From Thioploca sp. (GTDB taxonomy: Bacteria; Pseudomonadota; Gammaproteobacteria; Beggiatoales; Beggiatoaceae), in assembly GCA_030627235.1 (NCBI GenBank), contig DAOUSL010000013.1, positions 1 through 37,909 on the forward strand: DNA of 37,909 bases. The letters run 5' to 3'. This document shows, one piece after another, positions 235-12,117 of this stretch (its first letter is position 1; the number at the start of each line of letters is the position of its first letter). Under the pieces are notes generated by a model that had not been told where the DNA came from, ran no database searches, and saw nothing but the letters and a program-made list of their open reading frames with translations. Both the position numbers and the translations under genes were made by a program.

Positions 235-876
235 TCATTCAGTATAATGATTCTCTCCAATTACAATATTTTCCCGTCCTTGTTCTTTACATCTCTGATT
301 TGCTTCACGTAATGAGTGAGTACAGCCACAATATTCTTGTTTATAAAATTGTTCCTGTTTAGCAATTGTCACCATCCGTTGTGATCCTCCTTTTTTTCTC
401 CAATTATAATCCCAATAGGTTAAATTTGGATATTTTTCTGCGGCTCGTTTACCAGCTGTATTAACTTGTTGCATGTCTTTCCAACGTGAAATTCCCATAG
501 AACTGGTAAATACTTGAAAATCATGTTCATGGGCATATAATGATGCTCGTTCAAATCGCATTTCAAAACATATTGTACATCTAGCCCCACGTTCTGGGTC
601 AAATTCTAGCCCTTTAGTACGTTCATACCATTCATCTATATCATAATCAGCATCTATAAAAGGAATCTGGTGTTTTTCAGCAAAACGTTTGTTTTCATCT
701 TTACGAATTTCATATTCTTTACGTGGATGAATATTAGGATTATAGAAAAAAATAGTGTAATCTATATTTATGGCTGATAATGCTGCCATAATTTCACCTG
801 AACATGGAGCACAACAGGAGTGTAATAACACTTGTTTGATATTATTAGGTACAGAAATTATAACTGTTTTAGACAT
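235..876 (-). CDS. queH: Epoxyqueuosine reductase QueH
   Basis: QueH (the former DUF208 family) reduces epoxyqueuosine to queuosine in tRNA, the last step of queuosine synthesis, and is the non-homologous replacement for the cobalamin enzyme QueG. The 213-residue protein has the family's cysteine signature: HSCCAPC near the N-terminus (Cys21, Cys22, Cys25), Cys100 and Cys103 in RCTIC, and YCGC (Cys183, Cys185). In the family these bind an iron-sulfur cluster and a second metal. Length is normal and it has no signal peptide, as expected for a cytoplasmic enzyme. It stands alone: the next gene is divergent, and only a repeat element lies downstream. No preQ1 riboswitch was recognised upstream. 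Confidence 0.93.
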
Positions 877-1063: not shown

Positions 1064-3730
1064 ATGAAATTTTATCAACATATTCGTACTAAACTTGCCA
1101 TTGGTTTTTTATTGGTTGCATTAATTCCAGTTTTAATAATTGGTATTTATGCAATGCAAACGTCGGTCGAAATATTACACAAACAAGAATTAAATGTTCA
1201 AACTGAAAAGGTTAATACTTTTAAACATGATATTGAGACGTTTTTAATATCTACTAAAAAAGATTTAATGTTTCTTAGTGCTTCATATCCATTGCAAAAT
1301 TATTTACATTTACATCATACTAAAACTGAATTATCAATAACTGCACGACAAGCAATAGAGCAAGAATTTTTAGTTTTTGCGGAAAGTAGGAGTATTTATT
1401 ATCAGATTCGTTATCTAGATGAAACTGGACAAGAAATCATACGAATTAATACTTTTAATAATAAAGCAAGAATAACTAAAGATTTACAAAATAAAAATAA
1501 CCGTTACTATTTTACTGAAACAATATCCTTACCAAAAGGTAAAGTTTTTATATCGTCATTAGATTTAAATAGAGAACATGGCCAAATAGAAATTCCTTAT
1601 AAACCAGTTATTCGTTATGCCACTCCTGTTTTTTATCCAAATGGAGATAAAGCTGGCATAGTTATACTTAATATTGATGCGAACCAATTTTTACAAATAT
1701 TAAAAGAAGTTTCTTTAATTGATCAAAATGGTTTTTATTTGTCTCATGCAAAAGATGTTAATAAATGTTGGGGAGGTTCACGAGACTTAAATACCAATTA
1801 TAATTTTTTGACTCAAGAACACCCAGAATTGGCAGAACAAATTGCTTTAAATATAGAAGGCAATATCAAAACTGAAGACTTTATTATAACCTACTATCGT
1901 GTATCAGTATCAAAAATTGGCTATTGGGTATTAATTGCTAAACAACCAATAAAAAATATTTCAGCTTCCATTAAATCATTTCATAATACCTTTAGCATTG
2001 TTATTACTCTAACAATATTTTTATCTCTAATAATAGCAGTTTTTATTAGTAAAATTATTACTAAACCAATTGAAATACTTACTGATGTAACTAAACAAGT
2101 TAGCGCTGGTAATCGGCAAATTCGTATTCAAGAACGAGAACAAGATGAGATAGGAATATTAGAAAAAGGTTTTAATGCCATGTTAGATTCAATTAATTTA
2201 TATGAAGAAAACTTGCAAAAAATCAAACATGAAGCCCAAGCAGCTAATTTGGCAAAAAGTAGATTTTTAGCTAATATGAGTCACGAATTACGGACTCCTT
2301 TAAATGCAATTATTGGCTATGGTGAAATGTTGCAAGAAGAAATAGCTGATCTTGGTGAAATAGAACTAAGTAAAGATATTGAAAAAATCCACTTAGCCGG
2401 CAAACATTTACTAGCTAATATTAATGATATTTTGGATATTTCTAAGATTGAAGCTGGTAAAATGGAAATTTATGCCGAAACTTTTTACCTATCTAATATG
2501 GTAAACGATGTGGTAAATACGATTCAGCCATTATTAGATCGCAATAAAGATGTTTTAGAAATTTTTTATAGTGATGATTTGGGTGAAATGCACACTGATT
2601 TAACTAAAATTCGGCAAGTTTTATTAAAAATACTCGGCAATGCTTCTAAATTTAGCAATCAACAAAGTACTATATTTTTAGAAGTTATACGAGAAATTGA
2701 TGAATGGATCGTGTTTAAAATTAAAGATTGTGGTATTGGCATGAATGTCGAACAGAAAGACAATTTATTCAAAATTTTTACTCAGGCTGATAATTCTAGC
2801 ACTCGTAAATATGATGGCAGTGGTTTAGGTTTGGCTATTACTAATCATTTTGTGCAAATGATGGGTGGTTCAATCAGTGTAGAAAGTGAATTAGGTAAGG
2901 GTAGTACGTTTACAATTCGATTACCAGCTCGAGTAACTTTAGTGCAGAATAATCCAGATGAAAATTCTTTAGCTGAAGATATGGCAGTATTAGGAGACGG
3001 CGGCACTATACTTGTCATTGATGATGAATTAGGAGTGCGTAAAGTATTACATAACTATTTGACTAAACAAGGTTATCAAGTAGAAATAGCTGAAAGTGGT
3101 GAAGAAGGCTTGCAATTAGCCAAAAAAACATTACCAGATGTAATTATTTTAGATGTTATGATGCCAAAAATGGATGGTTGGGAGGTTTTATCTTATTTAA
3201 AAGCAGATCAAGAACTAGCTTCTATTCCAGTAATTATACTATCCATGATGGAAGATAAAAGCGTAGCATATTCTTTAGGGGCAGCTGATTATTTGATAAA
3301 ACCAATCACCCGTGAGCAATTATTTACTGTTTTGCAGAAATATCATTTTTCTTTAAATGAATCTGCTCCATTGGTTATGGTGATCGATGATGATAAAGTT
3401 AACCGTGATATGATGGAACGTATTATTCGCAAAGCAGATTTTAGAATTTGTAAAGTAGAAGATGGTTGGTTAGCATTAGAATATATTCAGAAAAAACAAA
3501 AACCAGCCGTTATTTTATTAGATTTACAAATGCCAGAAATGGATGGTTTTGAATTTGTAGCTAGATTGCAACAATATACTACTGAATCTATTCCAATTAT
3601 AGTGTTTACTGCTAAAGATATAACTATTGGAGATAGAACTAGATTAGAAAGTGTAGCAACTATTTTACAAAAAGGTTCGTATAGCAATGAAGTTCTAATT
3701 AAAGAAATTAAAAAAGTTATTGTAAAGTAA
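1064..3730 (+). CDS. Membrane hybrid histidine kinase with two receiver domains
   Basis: This is an 888-residue sensor kinase. A membrane segment (about 11-30), an extracytoplasmic sensor region that looks Cache-like (about 35-305) and a second membrane segment (about 308-330) are followed by HAMP (about 331-383). The HisKA domain has phospho-acceptor His407 in SHELRTPLN. The HATPase domain has its N box near 526, then GIGM and GSGLGLAI. Two CheY-like receivers follow, with predicted phospho-sites Asp697 (LDVMMPKMDGW) and Asp820 (LDLQMPEMDGF). There is no Hpt or DNA-binding output domain, so the signal must leave through another protein. The CHAT gene starts 96 bp downstream on the same strand, so co-transcription is possible. 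The ligand cannot be told from the sequence. Confidence 0.92.
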   Translation: MKFYQHIRTKLAIGFLLVALIPVLIIGIYAMQTSVEILHKQELNVQTEKVNTFKHDIETFLISTKKDLMFLSASYPLQNYLHLHHTKTELSITARQAIEQEFLVFAESRSIYYQIRYLDETGQEIIRINTFNNKARITKDLQNKNNRYYFTETISLPKGKVFISSLDLNREHGQIEIPYKPVIRYATPVFYPNGDKAGIVILNIDANQFLQILKEVSLIDQNGFYLSHAKDVNKCWGGSRDLNTNYNFLTQEHPELAEQIALNIEGNIKTEDFIITYYRVSVSKIGYWVLIAKQPIKNISASIKSFHNTFSIVITLTIFLSLIIAVFISKIITKPIEILTDVTKQVSAGNRQIRIQEREQDEIGILEKGFNAMLDSINLYEENLQKIKHEAQAANLAKSRFLANMSHELRTPLNAIIGYGEMLQEEIADLGEIELSKDIEKIHLAGKHLLANINDILDISKIEAGKMEIYAETFYLSNMVNDVVNTIQPLLDRNKDVLEIFYSDDLGEMHTDLTKIRQVLLKILGNASKFSNQQSTIFLEVIREIDEWIVFKIKDCGIGMNVEQKDNLFKIFTQADNSSTRKYDGSGLGLAITNHFVQMMGGSISVESELGKGSTFTIRLPARVTLVQNNPDENSLAEDMAVLGDGGTILVIDDELGVRKVLHNYLTKQGYQVEIAESGEEGLQLAKKTLPDVIILDVMMPKMDGWEVLSYLKADQELASIPVIILSMMEDKSVAYSLGAADYLIKPITREQLFTVLQKYHFSLNESAPLVMVIDDDKVNRDMMERIIRKADFRICKVEDGWLALEYIQKKQKPAVILLDLQMPEMDGFEFVARLQQYTTESIPIIVFTAKDITIGDRTRLESVATILQKGSYSNEVLIKEIKKVIVK

Positions 3731-3743
3731 GATATTTTAAATA

Positions 3744-3766
3744 TAGGGCAACAAGGATTGTCCCTA
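3744..3766. repeat. Short hairpin, GGGCAA...TTGTCCC type
   Basis: This imperfect palindrome reads TAGGGCAA, a 6-nt loop, then TTGTCCCTA (one bulged base), just after the kinase stop codon. It resembles the hairpin at 24257-24278, which suggests a dispersed REP-like unit. It could also act as a weak terminator, although no T tract follows. Confidence 0.45.
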
Positions 3767-3826
3767 CATAAATTAGGATTTATAGTAAATTCCAAAATTA
3801 TAGCATTTTTCGATTAGATAAACATC

Positions 3827-6187
3827 ATGAACTTTAATAAAATTATAATAGTAACAATTTTTATAACCTATTCCACTATTATTCAAGCACAAGATACTAA
3901 TGAGTTTTTTTATACTGGGCATTATGAAACAGCTATTGCAGAATGGGAAGCATTGCCAACACAAGATATTCAAACTTGGATTGGAATAGCGAAAGCTTAT
4001 AGATATTTGGGCTTACCGGATAAAGCTTTAACAGTTCTTACTACAAATCTATCAACAACACAACCAGTTAATCATGCAATATTATTGAATGAATTAAGTC
4101 AGTTGCATTTATCTCAATCCAGAATTAAATCTGCTAAAGTAGCTATACAAAATGCTGTAACAATAATCCGTCCTCTTAATAAACAACTGTTGTTAGCTGA
4201 TATTTTACGACAATTAGGGAATGTGCAAAGTGCCGAAGATGAATATGCAACTGCTATTAAATCTTATACTGAAGCTTTGGACTTAGTAACTAAATCTGAT
4301 TCTATGACAGCTAATTTTTCTAAAGATGATGTGCGGGAATTATATGGAAAAATTTTAGTTAATCAAGCTCAAACATATTTTTGGCTTGATGCAGATAATG
4401 CTTATCAATATTCTGATCCTAAACTTGCATTTAAATCTAGTATAAGAACAATTAAACATGCCATACAAATCACGAAAAACTGGCCAGATGCGTTTAATGA
4501 AGTATTTGCATTAATTGCGTTAAGTAAAGTTATGCAAAATATCCAAGCTAAATTTGCTGAACCAGAATTTAATCAGTTGATTTATCAAGTTCTTAATCAA
4601 GCTAAAGAAGTATCAGAAAGAATCAATAATTATCAGGCCAAAACTAATGCTTATGGATATTTAGGTAAACTTTATGAACAAAATAAACGTTATCCAGATG
4701 CTTTAATTTTAACTAGGAAAGCTCTATTTGCAGCTCAACAGATTCAAGAACAGCTATCTATGTACCGCTGGCAATGGCAATTAGGACGAATTTTTAAGGC
4801 TCAAGGTAAATTTTCAGAAGCAATATCCGCTTTAAAGCAAACAGTAAAAATTATTAATTTGCCAACAATTCGTGAACAAGTTATAGGATTCAATAGTAAT
4901 GATTTCCGGGCTAAAATCTCTCCAGTTTATTTTGCATTGGCAGATTTATTATTACAACAAGAAGATGATGATTCAATTCGAGAAGCTAGAGATACAATAG
5001 AATTTTTTAAACAGGCTGAGTTACAGGATTACTTTCAGAGCGAATGCTTTAATACTCAATGCACTCATTTAGAACAGGCTTTAGATTCTCAGACAGCTAT
5101 ATTATATCCAATTGTATTGCCAGATAGATTGGAATTATTGTTAAGTATACCTAATGTTACTGAATTAATTAAGTTTAAAGTTTTAGTTACTGAAAAAAAA
5201 TTACGCCGAGAAATTGCATTCTTGATTTCGGCTTTACGTAGACATCCTCTTTCTTATTTAGCCACTGCTGACGAAGATGAAGAAGTTATTTGTACACCTG
5301 ATTCATGGCAACAACTTCCGGTAAATATTTCACCGCGTTCTAAAGATTTTTTACCACCTGCTCAAAAATTATATAGATGGTTAATCAAGCCGTTATTAAC
5401 AAGCTTAACTAAATATAATATAAATACATTAATTATAGTACCAGAAGGTGTATTACGAACTGTGCCATTTTCTGCATTACATGATGGTAAGGAATTTTTG
5501 ATTCAAAACTATGCTTTAGCAGCTACGCCTAGCTTATGTTTAACAGATTTGAAAATTCAGCAACGAAATGTTAATAAAATGTTGGTAAGTGGCTTATCAG
5601 AATCGGTGCAAGGTTTTTCTAACTTACCATGTGCTAAATATGAAATAGATACTTTGCAAAAATCATATAATTTATATAATACTGAATATAAACCATTATT
5701 TAATAAAGATTTTACTTATGAAAATATGCAACAAAGAATCAATCAAGTAGAATATTCAATTCTTCATATTGCTTCCCATGGACAATTTAAACCAGATTTA
5801 GCAGATACTTTTTTGCTTACTTATAATAATAAATTAAGTATGGATAAATTGGAAAGTTTAATCAGGCGTACTAATACTCATAAGATTGATTTATTAACTC
5901 TGAGTGCTTGTGAAACTGCGGTTGGGAATGATAGAGCAGCTTTGGGATTAGCTGGAGTTGCATTAAAAGCTGGAGTAAAAAGTGCGTTGGCTAGTTTATG
6001 GAAGGTTGATGATGCTGCTACCCCAGCTATGATTATTGAATTTTATCAACAATTAACTAATACTAAATTAACTAAGGCTCAAGCATTACAGAATGCTCAA
6101 AAAATGATGCTAACCAACGCTAAATATGCTCAATTTCAGCACCCTTATTATTGGTCAGCATTTTTATTAATTGGGAATTGGTTTTAG
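3827..6187 (+). CDS. Exported TPR-CHAT domain protein, caspase-like protease fold
   Basis: This 786-residue protein starts with a hydrophobic signal-like segment (1-21, ending IQAQD). Helical TPR-type repeats follow (about 30-400; AIAEWEAL, NELSQLHLSQSR and similar), then a C-terminal CHAT domain (about 420-786). CHAT is a clan CD cysteine-peptidase domain related to caspases and separase. The predicted dyad is present: His651 in HIASHGQF and Cys695 in SACETAVG, and the family ends AFLLIGNWF. TPR modules usually recruit partners or the substrate, which is unknown here. The signal peptide puts it in the periplasm or outside. It follows the hybrid kinase by 96 bp and precedes the PEGA-PDZ-TPR gene by 117 bp, so the three may work together (inference). 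Confidence 0.9.
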   Translation: MNFNKIIIVTIFITYSTIIQAQDTNEFFYTGHYETAIAEWEALPTQDIQTWIGIAKAYRYLGLPDKALTVLTTNLSTTQPVNHAILLNELSQLHLSQSRIKSAKVAIQNAVTIIRPLNKQLLLADILRQLGNVQSAEDEYATAIKSYTEALDLVTKSDSMTANFSKDDVRELYGKILVNQAQTYFWLDADNAYQYSDPKLAFKSSIRTIKHAIQITKNWPDAFNEVFALIALSKVMQNIQAKFAEPEFNQLIYQVLNQAKEVSERINNYQAKTNAYGYLGKLYEQNKRYPDALILTRKALFAAQQIQEQLSMYRWQWQLGRIFKAQGKFSEAISALKQTVKIINLPTIREQVIGFNSNDFRAKISPVYFALADLLLQQEDDDSIREARDTIEFFKQAELQDYFQSECFNTQCTHLEQALDSQTAILYPIVLPDRLELLLSIPNVTELIKFKVLVTEKKLRREIAFLISALRRHPLSYLATADEDEEVICTPDSWQQLPVNISPRSKDFLPPAQKLYRWLIKPLLTSLTKYNINTLIIVPEGVLRTVPFSALHDGKEFLIQNYALAATPSLCLTDLKIQQRNVNKMLVSGLSESVQGFSNLPCAKYEIDTLQKSYNLYNTEYKPLFNKDFTYENMQQRINQVEYSILHIASHGQFKPDLADTFLLTYNNKLSMDKLESLIRRTNTHKIDLLTLSACETAVGNDRAALGLAGVALKAGVKSALASLWKVDDAATPAMIIEFYQQLTNTKLTKAQALQNAQKMMLTNAKYAQFQHPYYWSAFLLIGNWF

Positions 6188-6304
6188 GTGATTTTTGGAT
6201 AGTCTTAATTATACTTTGAGCCCACAGCACCAAGAAATGCTATTACGTTCTACTTAGCTTATATTATAAGTATTAATAACTTATATTTTTTATCCTACAC
6301 AAAG

Positions 6305-8866
6305 ATGTTTTTTTTAGTCAACTTTAATTACAATCATATGTACACAACTAACAATATTTTTTTATTAGTAATTTTATTAATCACATTTTTCACTCCAGTT
6401 ACTAATGCTGGGGAAAATGAAAAGTATCATCTTACTATAAATGTCACTCCTTCTGATGCCAAAATAAGAGTGATGAATATTAAACCAAAATATCAGCATG
6501 GTATTATGCTTAAATCTGGTAAATATGATATTAAGGTGACTCGTTCTGGTTATGAATCAAAACGGTGGCGGGTAGAAATTGAAGGTGTTGATTTAACAGT
6601 TAATATTGTTCTAAATAAGTTAGGAACAAGAAAAAATATTAATTCTAATAAAGGTGATATAGGTAACTTTGCTTTATGGGAATATGCTTTACAATTACGA
6701 AAAAGTAAGCCAAATTTGTTTGAGGAAGCACAAGGTGTTTTATTGCTGAAAATAGAAGCAGGTTCACAAGCTGAAAAAATAGGATTACGACGTGGTGATA
6801 TTATTATTGCCTACGCTGGGAAAAAAATTAATTCGATTAGTCAACTTAATAATTTAATCCATACTAATGCTGATAAAAAGAGGATAAAATTACGTTTTAT
6901 CCGTGCTAATGCTGTTAAAACTGTAAAGTTAAATGGTGGAAAATTTGGTATTAAGTTAGCAACTAGCATAGGAGAAGATTTTTCTCTGGTTGAGTGGTTT
7001 GAAACAGAATTTCTTATGATTTTACAACAAACTCAAAATGGTGAAAAAATTAATCAATTATTTATAGATAACCCTCATTTAGTTGAATTATATCAAATTT
7101 TATTAACTCGTACAGTTAAAAAAGGTACTAAAGAACAAGCAGAATGGGCTGGTAATATGATAAAAATAATAGAAAACATTTTTAAAAATCTATACTTACC
7201 ACCTCCTTATCTTACTATTGTGCAATTATTTGAAGAAGGTTTGAAAGCATCTCAGTCTGGTAATAATACTATAGCTTTAGAAAAATTTCAATTGGGACTA
7301 AAAAAAGCACAAAAGTTAGGTCATCAATACTATATTGGTCTATTTCTTGAAAAATTTGGCTTATTTTATTACAAACTAGAACAATATCAAAAATCTTTAG
7401 AATATTTTGAACAAGCATCAGTTGTTAGTCGTAATATTGATGATGCAAATGCTTTTGGAAATGCATTATATTTTATTGGTGGTATTTATAAAAATTGGGG
7501 ACAATATCCAAAAGCTTTAGGGTATTACCAACGAGCTTCGGTTATTAAACATCATGTTGGCGACAAATTTATGGAATCATCTTGTTTGACTGGCCTAGGT
7601 ATTATTTATCGTAATTTAAGTAATTATGAAAAAGCTTTAGAATATCTACAACAGGCATTAGTTATTGATCGTGAACTTGAAAATAAACGCAGTGAAAGTT
7701 TCGATTTAAGTGATATTGGTACAGTTTATTATGCTTTAAGTCAGTATCAAAAAGCCTTAGATTATTACCAACAATCTTTGAAAATTATGCGTGATATCAA
7801 GAACCAACATGGAGAAGGAACTTCTTTACATGATATTGGGATGGTATATGTAAATTTAGGTCAATATTTAAAAGCTTTGGATTACTTAGAAAAATCTTTA
7901 AAAGTAAGACGTATTATAAAAGATAAACATGGAGAAGCTACCAGTTTGATTGATATAAGTGCAACTTATGAAAAATTAGCTCAATATGAAAAAGCATTAG
8001 ATTACTCTTTCCAAGCTTTAAATATTAACCGTAAGATTGAATATAAGCTTGGTGAAGGAACTGCTTTAAATGGAATTGGTACTATTTACCAAAGATTAGG
8101 TCAATATCAAAAATCCCTAGATTATTTACAAAAATCCCTAAAAATTGGAACTGATATTAATGATAAAAGTAGTATTGGGCAAACTTTAAGTAATATTGGT
8201 AATGTTTATCTATCATGGAAACAATACCAAGCGGCATTAGGATATTATCAACAGAGTTTAGATATTTTTCGTGAAATTAAAAGCAAGCATGATGAAACAA
8301 TGGTTTTAGGTAATATCGGTGTAATTTACTTAAAATTAGAAAAAACTGAAAAAGCTTTGGATTATTTACAACAAGCTTTGGCTCTTGATAAAGAACTTGG
8401 TGATAGGGCAGGAATTGGTGAAGACTTAATGAATATTGGTATAGCTTATTCCACATTTGGGCAATATACAATTGCTTTAGATTACTTTCAACAGTCTTTG
8501 AAAATTACTCGTGAAGTTGGTAATAAACGAGTAGAAGTACTATGCCTTAATTATATTGCTGGTATTTACCAAAATTTAGGTCAACCTCAAAAATATTCAA
8601 GTTATTATCAACAGGCTTTGGCAATCTATCAAGAAATTGGTAGCCCACACGAAATGGAAAAAGATTTAACTAATATACCTTCTTATAATAGTAATTCTGT
8701 TGATCAAAAAACAGAGAATGATGAGAATACTAATAACATTATAAAGATGTCTCCTAATGAGGAAAATAGTCAAATAAAAAATACCAGAGGAATACTTGCC
8801 TCAATATTTTGGTTAATAATTATCATGGTAATTGTTAGCATTATTTTTATAAACAACAAGAGATAG
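6305..8866 (+). CDS. PEGA-PDZ-TPR repeat protein with C-terminal membrane anchor
   Basis: The protein has 853 residues from the first ATG. Met12 (6338) is an equally good start and gives a tighter signal peptide ending TNAG; neither has a convincing ribosome binding site. In order it shows a signal segment, a PEGA-like domain (about 42-105; LTINVTPSDAKI, GKYDIKVTRSGY), a PDZ-like domain (about 140-215; AGSQAEKIGLRRGDII), a spacer, then about 12 TPR units of 40 residues (about 310-790). It ends in a single membrane segment (about 830-850) followed by NNKR. The TPR units share QYQKALDYYQQSLKI and resemble kinesin-light-chain-type TPRs. It is probably an envelope scaffold for protein-protein contacts. 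Its place behind the TPR-CHAT gene suggests a partner or substrate adaptor, but no enzymatic motif is visible. Confidence 0.85.
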   Translation: MFFLVNFNYNHMYTTNNIFLLVILLITFFTPVTNAGENEKYHLTINVTPSDAKIRVMNIKPKYQHGIMLKSGKYDIKVTRSGYESKRWRVEIEGVDLTVNIVLNKLGTRKNINSNKGDIGNFALWEYALQLRKSKPNLFEEAQGVLLLKIEAGSQAEKIGLRRGDIIIAYAGKKINSISQLNNLIHTNADKKRIKLRFIRANAVKTVKLNGGKFGIKLATSIGEDFSLVEWFETEFLMILQQTQNGEKINQLFIDNPHLVELYQILLTRTVKKGTKEQAEWAGNMIKIIENIFKNLYLPPPYLTIVQLFEEGLKASQSGNNTIALEKFQLGLKKAQKLGHQYYIGLFLEKFGLFYYKLEQYQKSLEYFEQASVVSRNIDDANAFGNALYFIGGIYKNWGQYPKALGYYQRASVIKHHVGDKFMESSCLTGLGIIYRNLSNYEKALEYLQQALVIDRELENKRSESFDLSDIGTVYYALSQYQKALDYYQQSLKIMRDIKNQHGEGTSLHDIGMVYVNLGQYLKALDYLEKSLKVRRIIKDKHGEATSLIDISATYEKLAQYEKALDYSFQALNINRKIEYKLGEGTALNGIGTIYQRLGQYQKSLDYLQKSLKIGTDINDKSSIGQTLSNIGNVYLSWKQYQAALGYYQQSLDIFREIKSKHDETMVLGNIGVIYLKLEKTEKALDYLQQALALDKELGDRAGIGEDLMNIGIAYSTFGQYTIALDYFQQSLKITREVGNKRVEVLCLNYIAGIYQNLGQPQKYSSYYQQALAIYQEIGSPHEMEKDLTNIPSYNSNSVDQKTENDENTNNIIKMSPNEENSQIKNTRGILASIFWLIIIMVIVSIIFINNKR

Positions 8867-8871
8867 CTCAG

Positions 8872-8897
8872 AGGAGTTTCGTAGAAATTTCATGATG
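8872..8897 (+). repeat. Dispersed 26-bp repeat, copy 1
   Basis: The stretch starting AGGAGTTTCGTAGAAATTTC and ending ATGATG recurs with one mismatch on the opposite strand at 30184-30209. Both copies lie beside decayed gene fragments, which suggests a border of a mobile or recombining unit. Confidence 0.55.
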
Positions 8898-8920
8898 CGA
8901 ACGGAATATCCGTATTTACT

Positions 8921-8990
8921 AACACCAATATATACTCAATTCAAACATCCTTATTATTGATTGGGAATTGGTTTTAGGTGGATTTTATAT
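8921..8990 (+). pseudogene. Decayed duplicate of the 3' end of the CHAT gene
   Basis: This stretch is a degraded copy of 6115-6195, the last codons of the CHAT gene. TATACTCAATT..CATCCTTATTATTG matches the codons for YAQFQHPYYW. About 16 bases (those for SAFLL) are then missing, which breaks the frame. The 20 bases at 8961-8980 are identical to 6171-6190, including the TAG stop. A second CHAT-ending gene therefore probably once stood here, or a fragment was copied. It lies directly behind a TPR gene, as CHAT normally follows TPRs. Confidence 0.75.
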
Positions 8991-9011
8991 AGGGATTTAT
9001 TTTTTAAATAT

Positions 9012-9144: not shown

Positions 9145-12117
9145 TCAATCTGTTCCTAAATATAAAACATTATATTCTTTACCATTACCATCAATAACCT
9201 TATAATCTGAATATTTATCACCGTTTATATCATTTTGCAATAAGACGGTTAATACACCAGATAGAGGTAACAAAGGAGTATTACCTTTAAATGAATAGAT
9301 GTGTTGTCCTTTATTCTCAATGGTAATGATGCCAGCGTTACTAATATTTAATGAATTACTTTTTAGTGTTATACCAATAGTAACTCTATCAGGAATTGTT
9401 GCATCAGCTGGTGATTGAGCTTCAATTCCACCAAGATTTAATAATTTAAACTCTCTGGATGCCCCACCATTGGCTGGTTGTTCAATAACTAAATAATCTG
9501 GATAACCATCACCATTAATATCATCAATTACACTTACAGATAGAGATTTATTTGGTAGAGCTGGTGAACCACCTTTAAACTTATAACTATAAACCTTGCC
9601 CTCAAATTGAATAGTAAAGCTGCCATCATTATTTAGTTGTAACATGCTGTTACCTAAGTAATCTCGTAGATTAACAACACTTGGTATTGATGGATCAACA
9701 GGAGGTTCATCTGCTATTGGTTTCTCAATTACACTAGGTTCAACATCTTTTACAATTGGTTCTATTGGTTTTTCAATTACACTAGGCTTAACATCTTTTA
9801 CAATTGGTTCTATTGGTTTCTCAATTACACTAGGCTCAACATCTTTTACAATTGGTTTATCTGCTATTAGTTTCTCAATTACATTAGGCTCAACATTTTT
9901 AACAGTAGTTCCACAAGCATTAGGGTCTCCAATTAAGGTTACTTCATCAGTAGATATTAAGTTACGTTCTTTATCATGTAATTCGACTATATAACTGGTT
10001 GTAACTGAAGTATCGGTTGTAGCAATTCCTGGCCACCAGGCATTAATTTTAAACTGATTGCTAACACTGGTAATAGTTTGCCATTTTTGGCTACAACTAC
10101 CACAAATTGTACATTGATCCGTAACATCAGCAGAACTTACCCAACTAGTTTTCAGATATGCCAAGCTACCATTAGGAATTGTTACTTCACCAGTGACTTC
10201 TATCCATTGTGGATCAGTTAAACAAATTCCTTTTTCACTGCTATCAAATTCATTAAAAGTAACCTTTTCATTAGTTATAGTAGTAGAAAGTTGGCAATTT
10301 AATGGCCAAACTAAAGATTCTATATCAGTATAAGGAGTTGAAGTAGTAAAAGATCGTTGATAAATAACATTACAGCTTTCTGGGTCATAAACATAAGCAG
10401 TATCAGCTTTATTGTCATTAATAGAAAATAGTAACATGCCATCAGCTAGAGTTTCTAAAGCTTCAACTTGTTTACCTGGGAAATTAGCACATTTTAGTTT
10501 AAAACCAGTTTCACAATTCCATTCCCAAAGTTTCCTTCCTTCACTAGCATATAAAGTTGAACCATTACTACTCCAAGCTAATCCTTCAATACCACCTTCC
10601 TTTTTATGGCTAAACATACCTTTTGGCATTGGGTAAATTAATTGGCTAATAGCAGTTACTGGATCAATTAAAATTAAACCTGATTCTTGTGTTCCATCTT
10701 TTGAACCTCCATTAGACCAAGACCATAAAGTACCATCTGAATGAAAAGCTAATGATGCTAATTCACTAAACTTAGTATCACCAATTGGTTCAATATCACC
10801 GTTATTAGGATTTACTCTATATAACCATCCATCAAAGGCCAAAGAATAATCTTTACCAGTTACTCCATATAAGAAATTATGAATTGGATCAATTGCCATA
10901 CCTTCCATATCTAATCCACTATACAAAGGACCGATTGCGATAGACTTATATCCGGCTGGATCGATTGATAACAATTGTGAATCGGCAAAGTTTTTGTCAT
11001 TAACCGCATATATACGACAAGAATTTGTTGACATCTTTTTAAAAATATCATCTTCTTGTACTTCAACTCTAGCAGTATAAGTATCAGAATTTGAAGCATC
11101 TTTTTGGTCAGTTACAGTATAAGAAAAGTTATCATAACCTTTAAAATTAGGATTGGAAAAATAAAATAAAATATCCTTAACCTGTTTTATATAACTGTTA
11201 GTACTGCCATGTATTATCAAAAATTGGGTTCTTCTATCATAATTAGCTGAAATATCGATAGTTAGTAACATTTTACTTCTTACTACTGCTATATGATCAG
11301 CATAAATAAATTGTGGTAGCGGTTCCATGATGGATACTTGTTGCGCACTTATTTCGATCTCAATTATAAAAGTATATTTATCATTTACTTTATAAGAGAA
11401 ACTATCTTTGCCGCTATAATATGGTTCAGAAGTATAAGTTAAAGTACCATTATTATTATTTACTAAATCACCATGATTTGGATTATTAATTGCTAAATCC
11501 TGTTCATCTGGTTTATAATCACCAGCAACTGTAATTAATAATGGTTCACCCGGTTTTGCTGTTGCACTATAGGTAGTTGGAATAATTGGTTCTGGATCAG
11601 GTTCAGGTATAGGAACTACTTCTGATACAGAAAAATCACTAGTTGCATTATCACTAGGCGGCCTAATAAATAGCCTTACTGTTCTTAACTTACCATCATC
11701 ATCTATATAAGTAAAATAGTCTTCACCATAAAAACCAGGATTAGGAGTATAAACTAATTCTCCATTCACTAACGTAACAGTACCATTTTTAGGATGAATA
11801 TTGAGAGATAAAGTTCTAACTTTAGCAATCTTAATCTCATCATTACTTGAGGAAGTTATATCAGTATCTTCATCTAAAATATCATCAGCAATTGAGGAAG
11901 CTATATCAGTATCTTCGTCTAAAATATCATCAGTACTTGAAGAATCTATATCAGTATCTTCATATAAAATATCATCAATTATGTCTGCTACTGTATCTTC
12001 TTCTTCGTAATAACAATAACCATCTTCTCCACAGACTAATATACCTATACCATCTGCATAAGAATTAATTGAAATTATGAATATAGTTATTAATGTTATA
12101 AAATTAAACTTGTTCAT
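9145..12117 (-). CDS. Large secreted protein with Ig-like modules and propeller-like region
   Basis: This 990-residue protein has a signal peptide (1-22). An acidic repeat (about 47-92; DDILDEDTDI about three times) follows. Next are three Ig/cadherin-like modules (about 105-152, 185-257, 265-355) with the NGTLTYTSEPYYSGKDSFSY-type signature. Residues 365-610 resemble a beta-propeller (LYGVTG, GWLYRVNPNNGDIEPIG, LASLAFHSDGTLWSWS), and 625-735 are Cys-rich. A repetitive linker (about 740-805; units of EPSVIEKPIEPIVKDV) leads to a duplicated C-terminal module with DINGDGYPDYLVI and DINGDKYSDYKVI, which look like calcium-binding Asp loops. AGGAG lies well placed before the ATG. It is probably a surface or extracellular adhesin-like or structural protein; no catalytic motif is seen. 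The neighbouring divergent gspC hints at type II export (inference). Confidence 0.8.
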   Translation of the reverse strand: MNKFNFITLITIFIISINSYADGIGILVCGEDGYCYYEEEDTVADIIDDILYEDTDIDSSSTDDILDEDTDIASSIADDILDEDTDITSSSNDEIKIAKVRTLSLNIHPKNGTVTLVNGELVYTPNPGFYGEDYFTYIDDDGKLRTVRLFIRPPSDNATSDFSVSEVVPIPEPDPEPIIPTTYSATAKPGEPLLITVAGDYKPDEQDLAINNPNHGDLVNNNNGTLTYTSEPYYSGKDSFSYKVNDKYTFIIEIEISAQQVSIMEPLPQFIYADHIAVVRSKMLLTIDISANYDRRTQFLIIHGSTNSYIKQVKDILFYFSNPNFKGYDNFSYTVTDQKDASNSDTYTARVEVQEDDIFKKMSTNSCRIYAVNDKNFADSQLLSIDPAGYKSIAIGPLYSGLDMEGMAIDPIHNFLYGVTGKDYSLAFDGWLYRVNPNNGDIEPIGDTKFSELASLAFHSDGTLWSWSNGGSKDGTQESGLILIDPVTAISQLIYPMPKGMFSHKKEGGIEGLAWSSNGSTLYASEGRKLWEWNCETGFKLKCANFPGKQVEALETLADGMLLFSINDNKADTAYVYDPESCNVIYQRSFTTSTPYTDIESLVWPLNCQLSTTITNEKVTFNEFDSSEKGICLTDPQWIEVTGEVTIPNGSLAYLKTSWVSSADVTDQCTICGSCSQKWQTITSVSNQFKINAWWPGIATTDTSVTTSYIVELHDKERNLISTDEVTLIGDPNACGTTVKNVEPNVIEKLIADKPIVKDVEPSVIEKPIEPIVKDVKPSVIEKPIEPIVKDVEPSVIEKPIADEPPVDPSIPSVVNLRDYLGNSMLQLNNDGSFTIQFEGKVYSYKFKGGSPALPNKSLSVSVIDDINGDGYPDYLVIEQPANGGASREFKLLNLGGIEAQSPADATIPDRVTIGITLKSNSLNISNAGIITIENKGQHIYSFKGNTPLLPLSGVLTVLLQNDINGDKYSDYKVIDGNGKEYNVLYLGTD
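9700..9900 (-). repeat. In-gene tandem repeat coding the EPSVIEKPI linker
   Basis: About three to four imperfect copies of a unit coding for EPIVKDVEPSVIEKPI lie within the secreted protein gene. The copies differ by few bases, which points to recent slippage or recombination. The product is a Pro/Val/Glu-rich flexible linker. Confidence 0.7.
11840..11985 (-). repeat. In-gene tandem repeat coding DDILDEDTDI
   Basis: About three near-identical copies of a roughly 54-60-bp unit encode an Asp/Ser-rich segment just behind the signal peptide of the 990-residue protein. The opposite strand shows repetitive ORFs here, which are shadows of this repeat. Confidence 0.7.

Follow-up and report, generated by a model that had tools for sequence, protein, structure and literature searches.

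To our knowledge, the substrates of bacterial CHAT proteases are mostly not known. Proteins that combine a CHAT domain with TPRs have been described as the TPR-CHAT type (PF12770); as Csx29, the TPR-CHAT protease of Craspase in type III-E CRISPR; and as HetF of filamentous cyanobacteria, a putative protease that needs its active site and carries CHAT within residues 1–555, followed by a transmembrane segment and TPRs (PMC8406250). MacGregor (2016) described a T. ingrica locus in which a receiver-domain kinase is preceded by a hypothetical protein and adjoined by a CHAT-TPR gene; it is related by rearrangement to a locus in Maribeggiatoa, and these two genomes were presented as a case of gene rearrangement, with no module proposed (PMC5108060). 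Those loci resemble the CHAT neighbourhoods described below and may hold the same genes.

Here we analyzed a 37,909-nt stretch of a Thioploca sp. genome (GCA_030627235.1, contig DAOUSL010000013.1; hereafter the window), in which a hybrid sensor kinase, a TPR-CHAT protein and a PDZ-TPR protein (the scaffold) are encoded in a row. The genome (4.58 Mb, 471 contigs, approximately 99% complete) belongs to a genus that includes Ca. Halobeggiatoa sp. HSG11 and Thioploca-labelled MAGs, and the names of these members suggest that the organism is a Beggiatoaceae-type filamentous sulfur bacterium. The relatives compared are mostly MAGs, in which contig ends hide some neighbours. An earlier note on this DNA had tentatively read the three genes as one envelope protease circuit. 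This attractive story appears to rest on a local rearrangement, and the real signal, which lies mostly outside the window together with what is new here, is a recurrent neighbourhood in which CHAT adjoins a propeller kinase and an exported protein specific to the family.

Gene content of the window

The features relevant to this analysis are as follows.

235..876, − strand: queH (epoxyqueuosine reductase; PF02677, 212.8 bits), divergent from the kinase gene
1064..3730, + strand: hybrid sensor histidine kinase, 888 aa (domain matches)
3827..6187, + strand: TPR-CHAT protein, 786 aa, signal-peptide-like N-terminus (PF12770, 208.7 bits)
5777..5779, + strand: codon of the predicted catalytic His651, invariant in 39/39 aligned CHAT proteins
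5909..5911, + strand: codon of the predicted catalytic Cys695, invariant in 39/39 aligned CHAT proteins
6305..8866, + strand: scaffold, 853 aa, PEGA-like, PDZ, about 12 TPRs and a C-terminal transmembrane segment (domain matches, periodicity, hydropathy)
8872..8917, + strand: 46-nt repeat; the copy in G004 (85%) begins 10 bp downstream of the CHAT stop
8930..8992, + strand: degenerate second CHAT 3' end with bases past the stop, matching 6124–6202 in two pieces (83–86%, 16 bp missing)

The kinase, TPR-CHAT and PDZ-TPR ORFs are all open and intact and follow one another in this order on the same strand, separated by 96 and 117 bp. Between the three genes, no terminator-like site was found and promoter matches were at chance level. 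A hairpin-like sequence in the first gap (3744–3767) was considered as a dispersed repeat, but with a single other copy carrying three mismatches it does not represent a repeat family. While the domain scores of the three genes are far beyond chance, there is nothing special in their adjacency.

The domain content read earlier for the kinase was borne out: a sensor domain (HK_sensor_dom_bact) with one transmembrane stretch on each side is accompanied by HAMP, HisKA, HATPase_c and two receivers, and there is no output domain. The second gene is predicted to encode a cysteine protease of the TPR-CHAT type. Its TPRs lie upstream of a CHAT domain at residues 510–784 (cut-off 24 bits), the match spans profile positions 2–289 of 289, and the His-Cys dyad consists of His651 in the motif HIASHG and Cys695 in LSACET. 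The claim of an intact dyad thus stands, and so does its conservation among orthologues, as both residues are invariant and C407 is nearly invariant in the 39 CHAT proteins compared. The N-terminus resembles a signal peptide by eye and no 19-residue window exceeds a hydropathy of 1.7; judged by these two means, the protein is probably exported. In an AlphaFold model built from eight sequences, the TPR half was good and the CHAT domain was largely below 50 pLDDT, and a sequence search with the CHAT domain found no solved CHAT structure.

The order of TPR and CHAT, the dyad and the full-length domain match are common to the window protein and the TPR-CHAT type, while the signal-peptide-like N-terminus and the neighbours of its relatives set it apart. 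TPR and CHAT are also shared with Csx29; however, the C-terminal half of the window protein gives a weak match to NF041237 (24.7 bits against a cut-off of 300), the examined neighbours of the window CHAT gene are not CRISPR genes, and the window protein is probably exported whereas Csx29 is cytosolic. PADLOC returned weak matches and no defence system. The likeness to HetF lies in a protein with CHAT and TPR in a filamentous bacterium, but the window protein has its TPRs before CHAT and no internal transmembrane segment was seen, which is not the order of HetF.

For the scaffold, the approximately 12 TPRs, the PDZ domain and the membrane anchor proposed in the earlier note were recovered, as a 40-residue period over residues 331–790 (about 11–12 TPRs), one PDZ match (PDZ_6, 32 bits, cut-off 27) and a hydrophobic stretch around residues 826–852 that we read as the anchor, whereas the PEGA match is sub-threshold (PF08308, 17.2 bits, cut-off 20.8). 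An AlphaFold model from one sequence (mean 45.5) was usable only for part of the TPRs.

Linkage in relatives and the origin of the gene order

The kinase-CHAT-scaffold order is absent from every relative examined. In Ca. Halobeggiatoa HSG11 (G004), the orthologues of the three genes are located on three contigs (C315, C298 and C257). Because this genome is 99% complete and each orthologue is flanked by other genes within its contig, their separation is not an assembly gap; the contig with the kinase orthologue ends 351 bp away, on the queH side. In G002 (84% complete), which yielded no scaffold orthologue, CHAT and the kinase are on separate contigs (C84 and C231). CHAT orthologues share 72–85% identity within the genus (G001–G004) and approximately 43–62% in other genera; the one in G003 adjoins an 1839-aa propeller kinase, and those in G001, G002 and G004 adjoin unrelated genes. 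Orthologues of the kinase occur in G002 (82%), G004 (80%) and five further cases at 43–56%, and none of the seven has a CHAT gene next to it. The constant neighbour of the kinase across genera is divergent queH, a pair present in G000, G002 (QueH at 84%) and G006 (QueH at 66%), which represent two genera. The scaffold has a single full-length orthologue, on C257 of G004 (64% over 809 aa), without a CHAT neighbour.

The DNA behind the scaffold gene carries a rearrangement scar. Positions 8930–8992 repeat the last codons of the CHAT gene, its stop codon and the first bases after it, and just before this copy lies the 46-nt repeat, of which further similar copies exist elsewhere. The scaffold gene is thus bracketed by two CHAT tails, a layout that fits an insertion and a duplication with later loss equally. 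On contig C290 of the window genome lies another scaffold gene copy, decayed and interrupted by stops. Outside the genus, the closest relatives of the PDZ-TPR protein are fusions with a C-terminal CHAT domain, of 1056 aa (G007) and 1683 aa (G022); the window scaffold, which ends in a membrane anchor, and its G004 orthologue have no CHAT part. Most simply, the scaffold is a CHAT-less relative of such fused proteins; a tie by descent to some CHAT protein, not specifically to that of the window, is plausible.

We consider it probable that the window order is a recent rearrangement in one Beggiatoaceae lineage of the Ca. Halobeggiatoa/Thioploca kind, bringing together separately inherited genes that form no conserved circuit; this judgement covers the whole explanation, including the proposal for the CHAT neighbours in the next section.

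Neighbours of the CHAT clade

In the CHAT tree, the window protein groups with 28 other TPR-CHATs in a Beggiatoaceae-wide clade (29 members, many genera; 97/100). At the 28 clade loci outside the window, two neighbours recur: S, an exported protein of approximately 180 aa, and K, a hybrid kinase with a Reg_prop beta-propeller and Y_Y_Y domain. S was found within two genes of CHAT in 15 of the 28 loci (seven genera) and K, assigned by a motif rule, in 8 of 28 (six genera), counts that are not independent as the clade loci are related; a convenience set of control neighbourhoods (271 genes) contained one S and no K. A ninth locus, in G022, has K beyond S. S is usually directly upstream of CHAT on the same strand and sometimes overlaps it, while K is divergent from CHAT, follows it or, in G020, precedes it with a 4-bp overlap. 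Neither S nor K adjoins CHAT in G001, G002, G004, G014, G041, G052 and others, some of which are cut by contig ends, and neither is next to CHAT in the window.

S has no match in Pfam or NCBIfam. S or a relative of it is present in 39 of the 42 genomes of the family; in a sample of the class (274 genomes), only three had a match, all three of them family members. No S was found on plasmids. Of 36 S proteins, nearly all have a conserved basic tract between the signal peptide and a folded W...C domain (RPRKRS, RRRG, RQRT, RPRKR-like). The K proteins combine the propeller, Y_Y_Y, HisKA, HATPase and REC with cyclase, GGDEF-EAL or SpoIIE domains at their ends. They are the frequent kinase neighbours of the clade and differ from the window kinase, whose sensor domain is dCache-like. 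The link between a kinase and a CHAT protease claimed earlier therefore holds at the level of the clade, across six genera, but with kinases of the Reg_prop type rather than that of the window, which makes a kinase-protease link plausible for the clade. The S-CHAT-K partnership looks functional.

S-K pairs without CHAT occur at nine loci, including C260 of the window genome. At C260, S (L190:6029-6550) lies upstream of K (L190:141-5495), a Reg_prop hybrid kinase whose outputs are GGDEF and EAL, and G002, G003 and G004 have the same pair; one TAG falls within the longer S match at C260. The K on C272 of the window genome clusters in the K tree with kinases that flank CHAT in G003 and G049 (96/93), and for this reason the linkage of CHAT to K appears to predate the window order. 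As the genome keeps both the S-K pair and a K whose close relatives flank CHAT elsewhere, parsimony suggests that CHAT once lay beside a C272-type kinase and probably moved away in the window lineage.

Among caspase-like enzymes, those of the separase and metacaspase kinds cleave after Arg. This specificity, together with the basic tract, makes S a natural candidate substrate. CHAT would be an exported cysteine protease that cuts after Arg, S would be its partner or substrate, processed at the conserved basic tract, and the periplasmic propeller of K may report the processed state of S or control the CHAT-S pair. The window protease would work in trans, on S whose gene lies at another locus. 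The basic tract could also have another role, e.g., in membrane or polymer binding. In its full form, the proposal is that filamentous and giant sulfur bacteria have an envelope module, so far undescribed, that couples proteolysis to signalling: CHAT would cut the pro-protein S at the Arg tract, and the propeller of K would sense the product and drive outputs of the cyclase, GGDEF-EAL or SpoIIE type; we put this forward tentatively, as a possibility that we regard as rather unlikely. S is a concrete and testable candidate substrate for a CHAT protease.

Other readings of the locus were weighed against the recent rearrangement of separately inherited genes. The new neighbourhood may be functional although recent, with the queH-linked kinase now partnering CHAT in place of a propeller kinase and the PDZ-TPR protein serving as an anchor. 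Although its three genes are intact while some relatives in the same genome are broken (the frameshifted TPR-CHAT gene at C225 and the C290 scaffold copy), the order is found in one genome only, selection for it is not visible, and relatives without an adjoining CHAT have an equally intact kinase; we regard this reading as unlikely. Equally unlikely, in our judgement, is that the clade serves two-partner-secretion (TPS) adhesins rather than a signalling kinase. TPS-domain proteins do lie near CHAT in 5 of the 28 clade loci, one ORF of G020 joins an N-terminal TPS domain to a C-terminal CHAT domain, and a CHAT paralogue in the window genome is followed by a TPS protein, but S and K are commoner neighbours and no TPS gene is near the window CHAT. 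The conserved circuit, with the kinase as sensor, CHAT as the cutting enzyme and the TPR-PDZ protein as the dock for substrates, is very improbable: the shared strand, short gaps and lack of a terminator-like site, the envelope features of all three proteins, the association of CHAT with hybrid kinases in the clade and the PDZ-TPR-CHAT fusions speak for it, but the order recurs in no relative, the kinase goes with queH, the G004 scaffold has no CHAT neighbour, the scaffold gene is followed by the scar, and hybrid kinases are so numerous that chance adjacency to one is not rare. A docking role for the scaffold is likewise unsupported; the CHAT genes of the clade mostly adjoin the small exported S rather than a PDZ-TPR scaffold.

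Other CHAT loci and minor observations

The window genome contains 17 CHAT matches in total, and its TPR-CHATs on C222, C469, C323 and C267 fall outside the clade of the window protein. At C225, an apparent split operon (TPR, 773 aa, and CHAT, 382 aa) looks, by comparison with C444, like one TPR-CHAT gene broken by a frameshift into two ORFs (L096:4112-7591). The paralogue on C469 precedes a TPS-domain protein (L101:1780-6145), and other CHAT genes of the family are also near TPS genes. The fused ORF of G020 (C62, L046:1267-6054) encodes 1595 aa with TPS at 27–307 and CHAT at 1326–1593, that is, a TPS passenger joined to a caspase-like domain. A protein of approximately 337 aa follows a CHAT gene on the same strand in two genomes (L102:2478-3494, on C323 of the window genome, and L040:6709-7722), and the copy in L040 shows protein-kinase-like motifs by eye. 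Within the window, positions 9145–12117 encode an exported protein of 990 aa that is Big_9/cadherin-like and has a phytase-like match; one homologue adjoins the decayed scaffold gene on C290, and another is near CHAT in G049.
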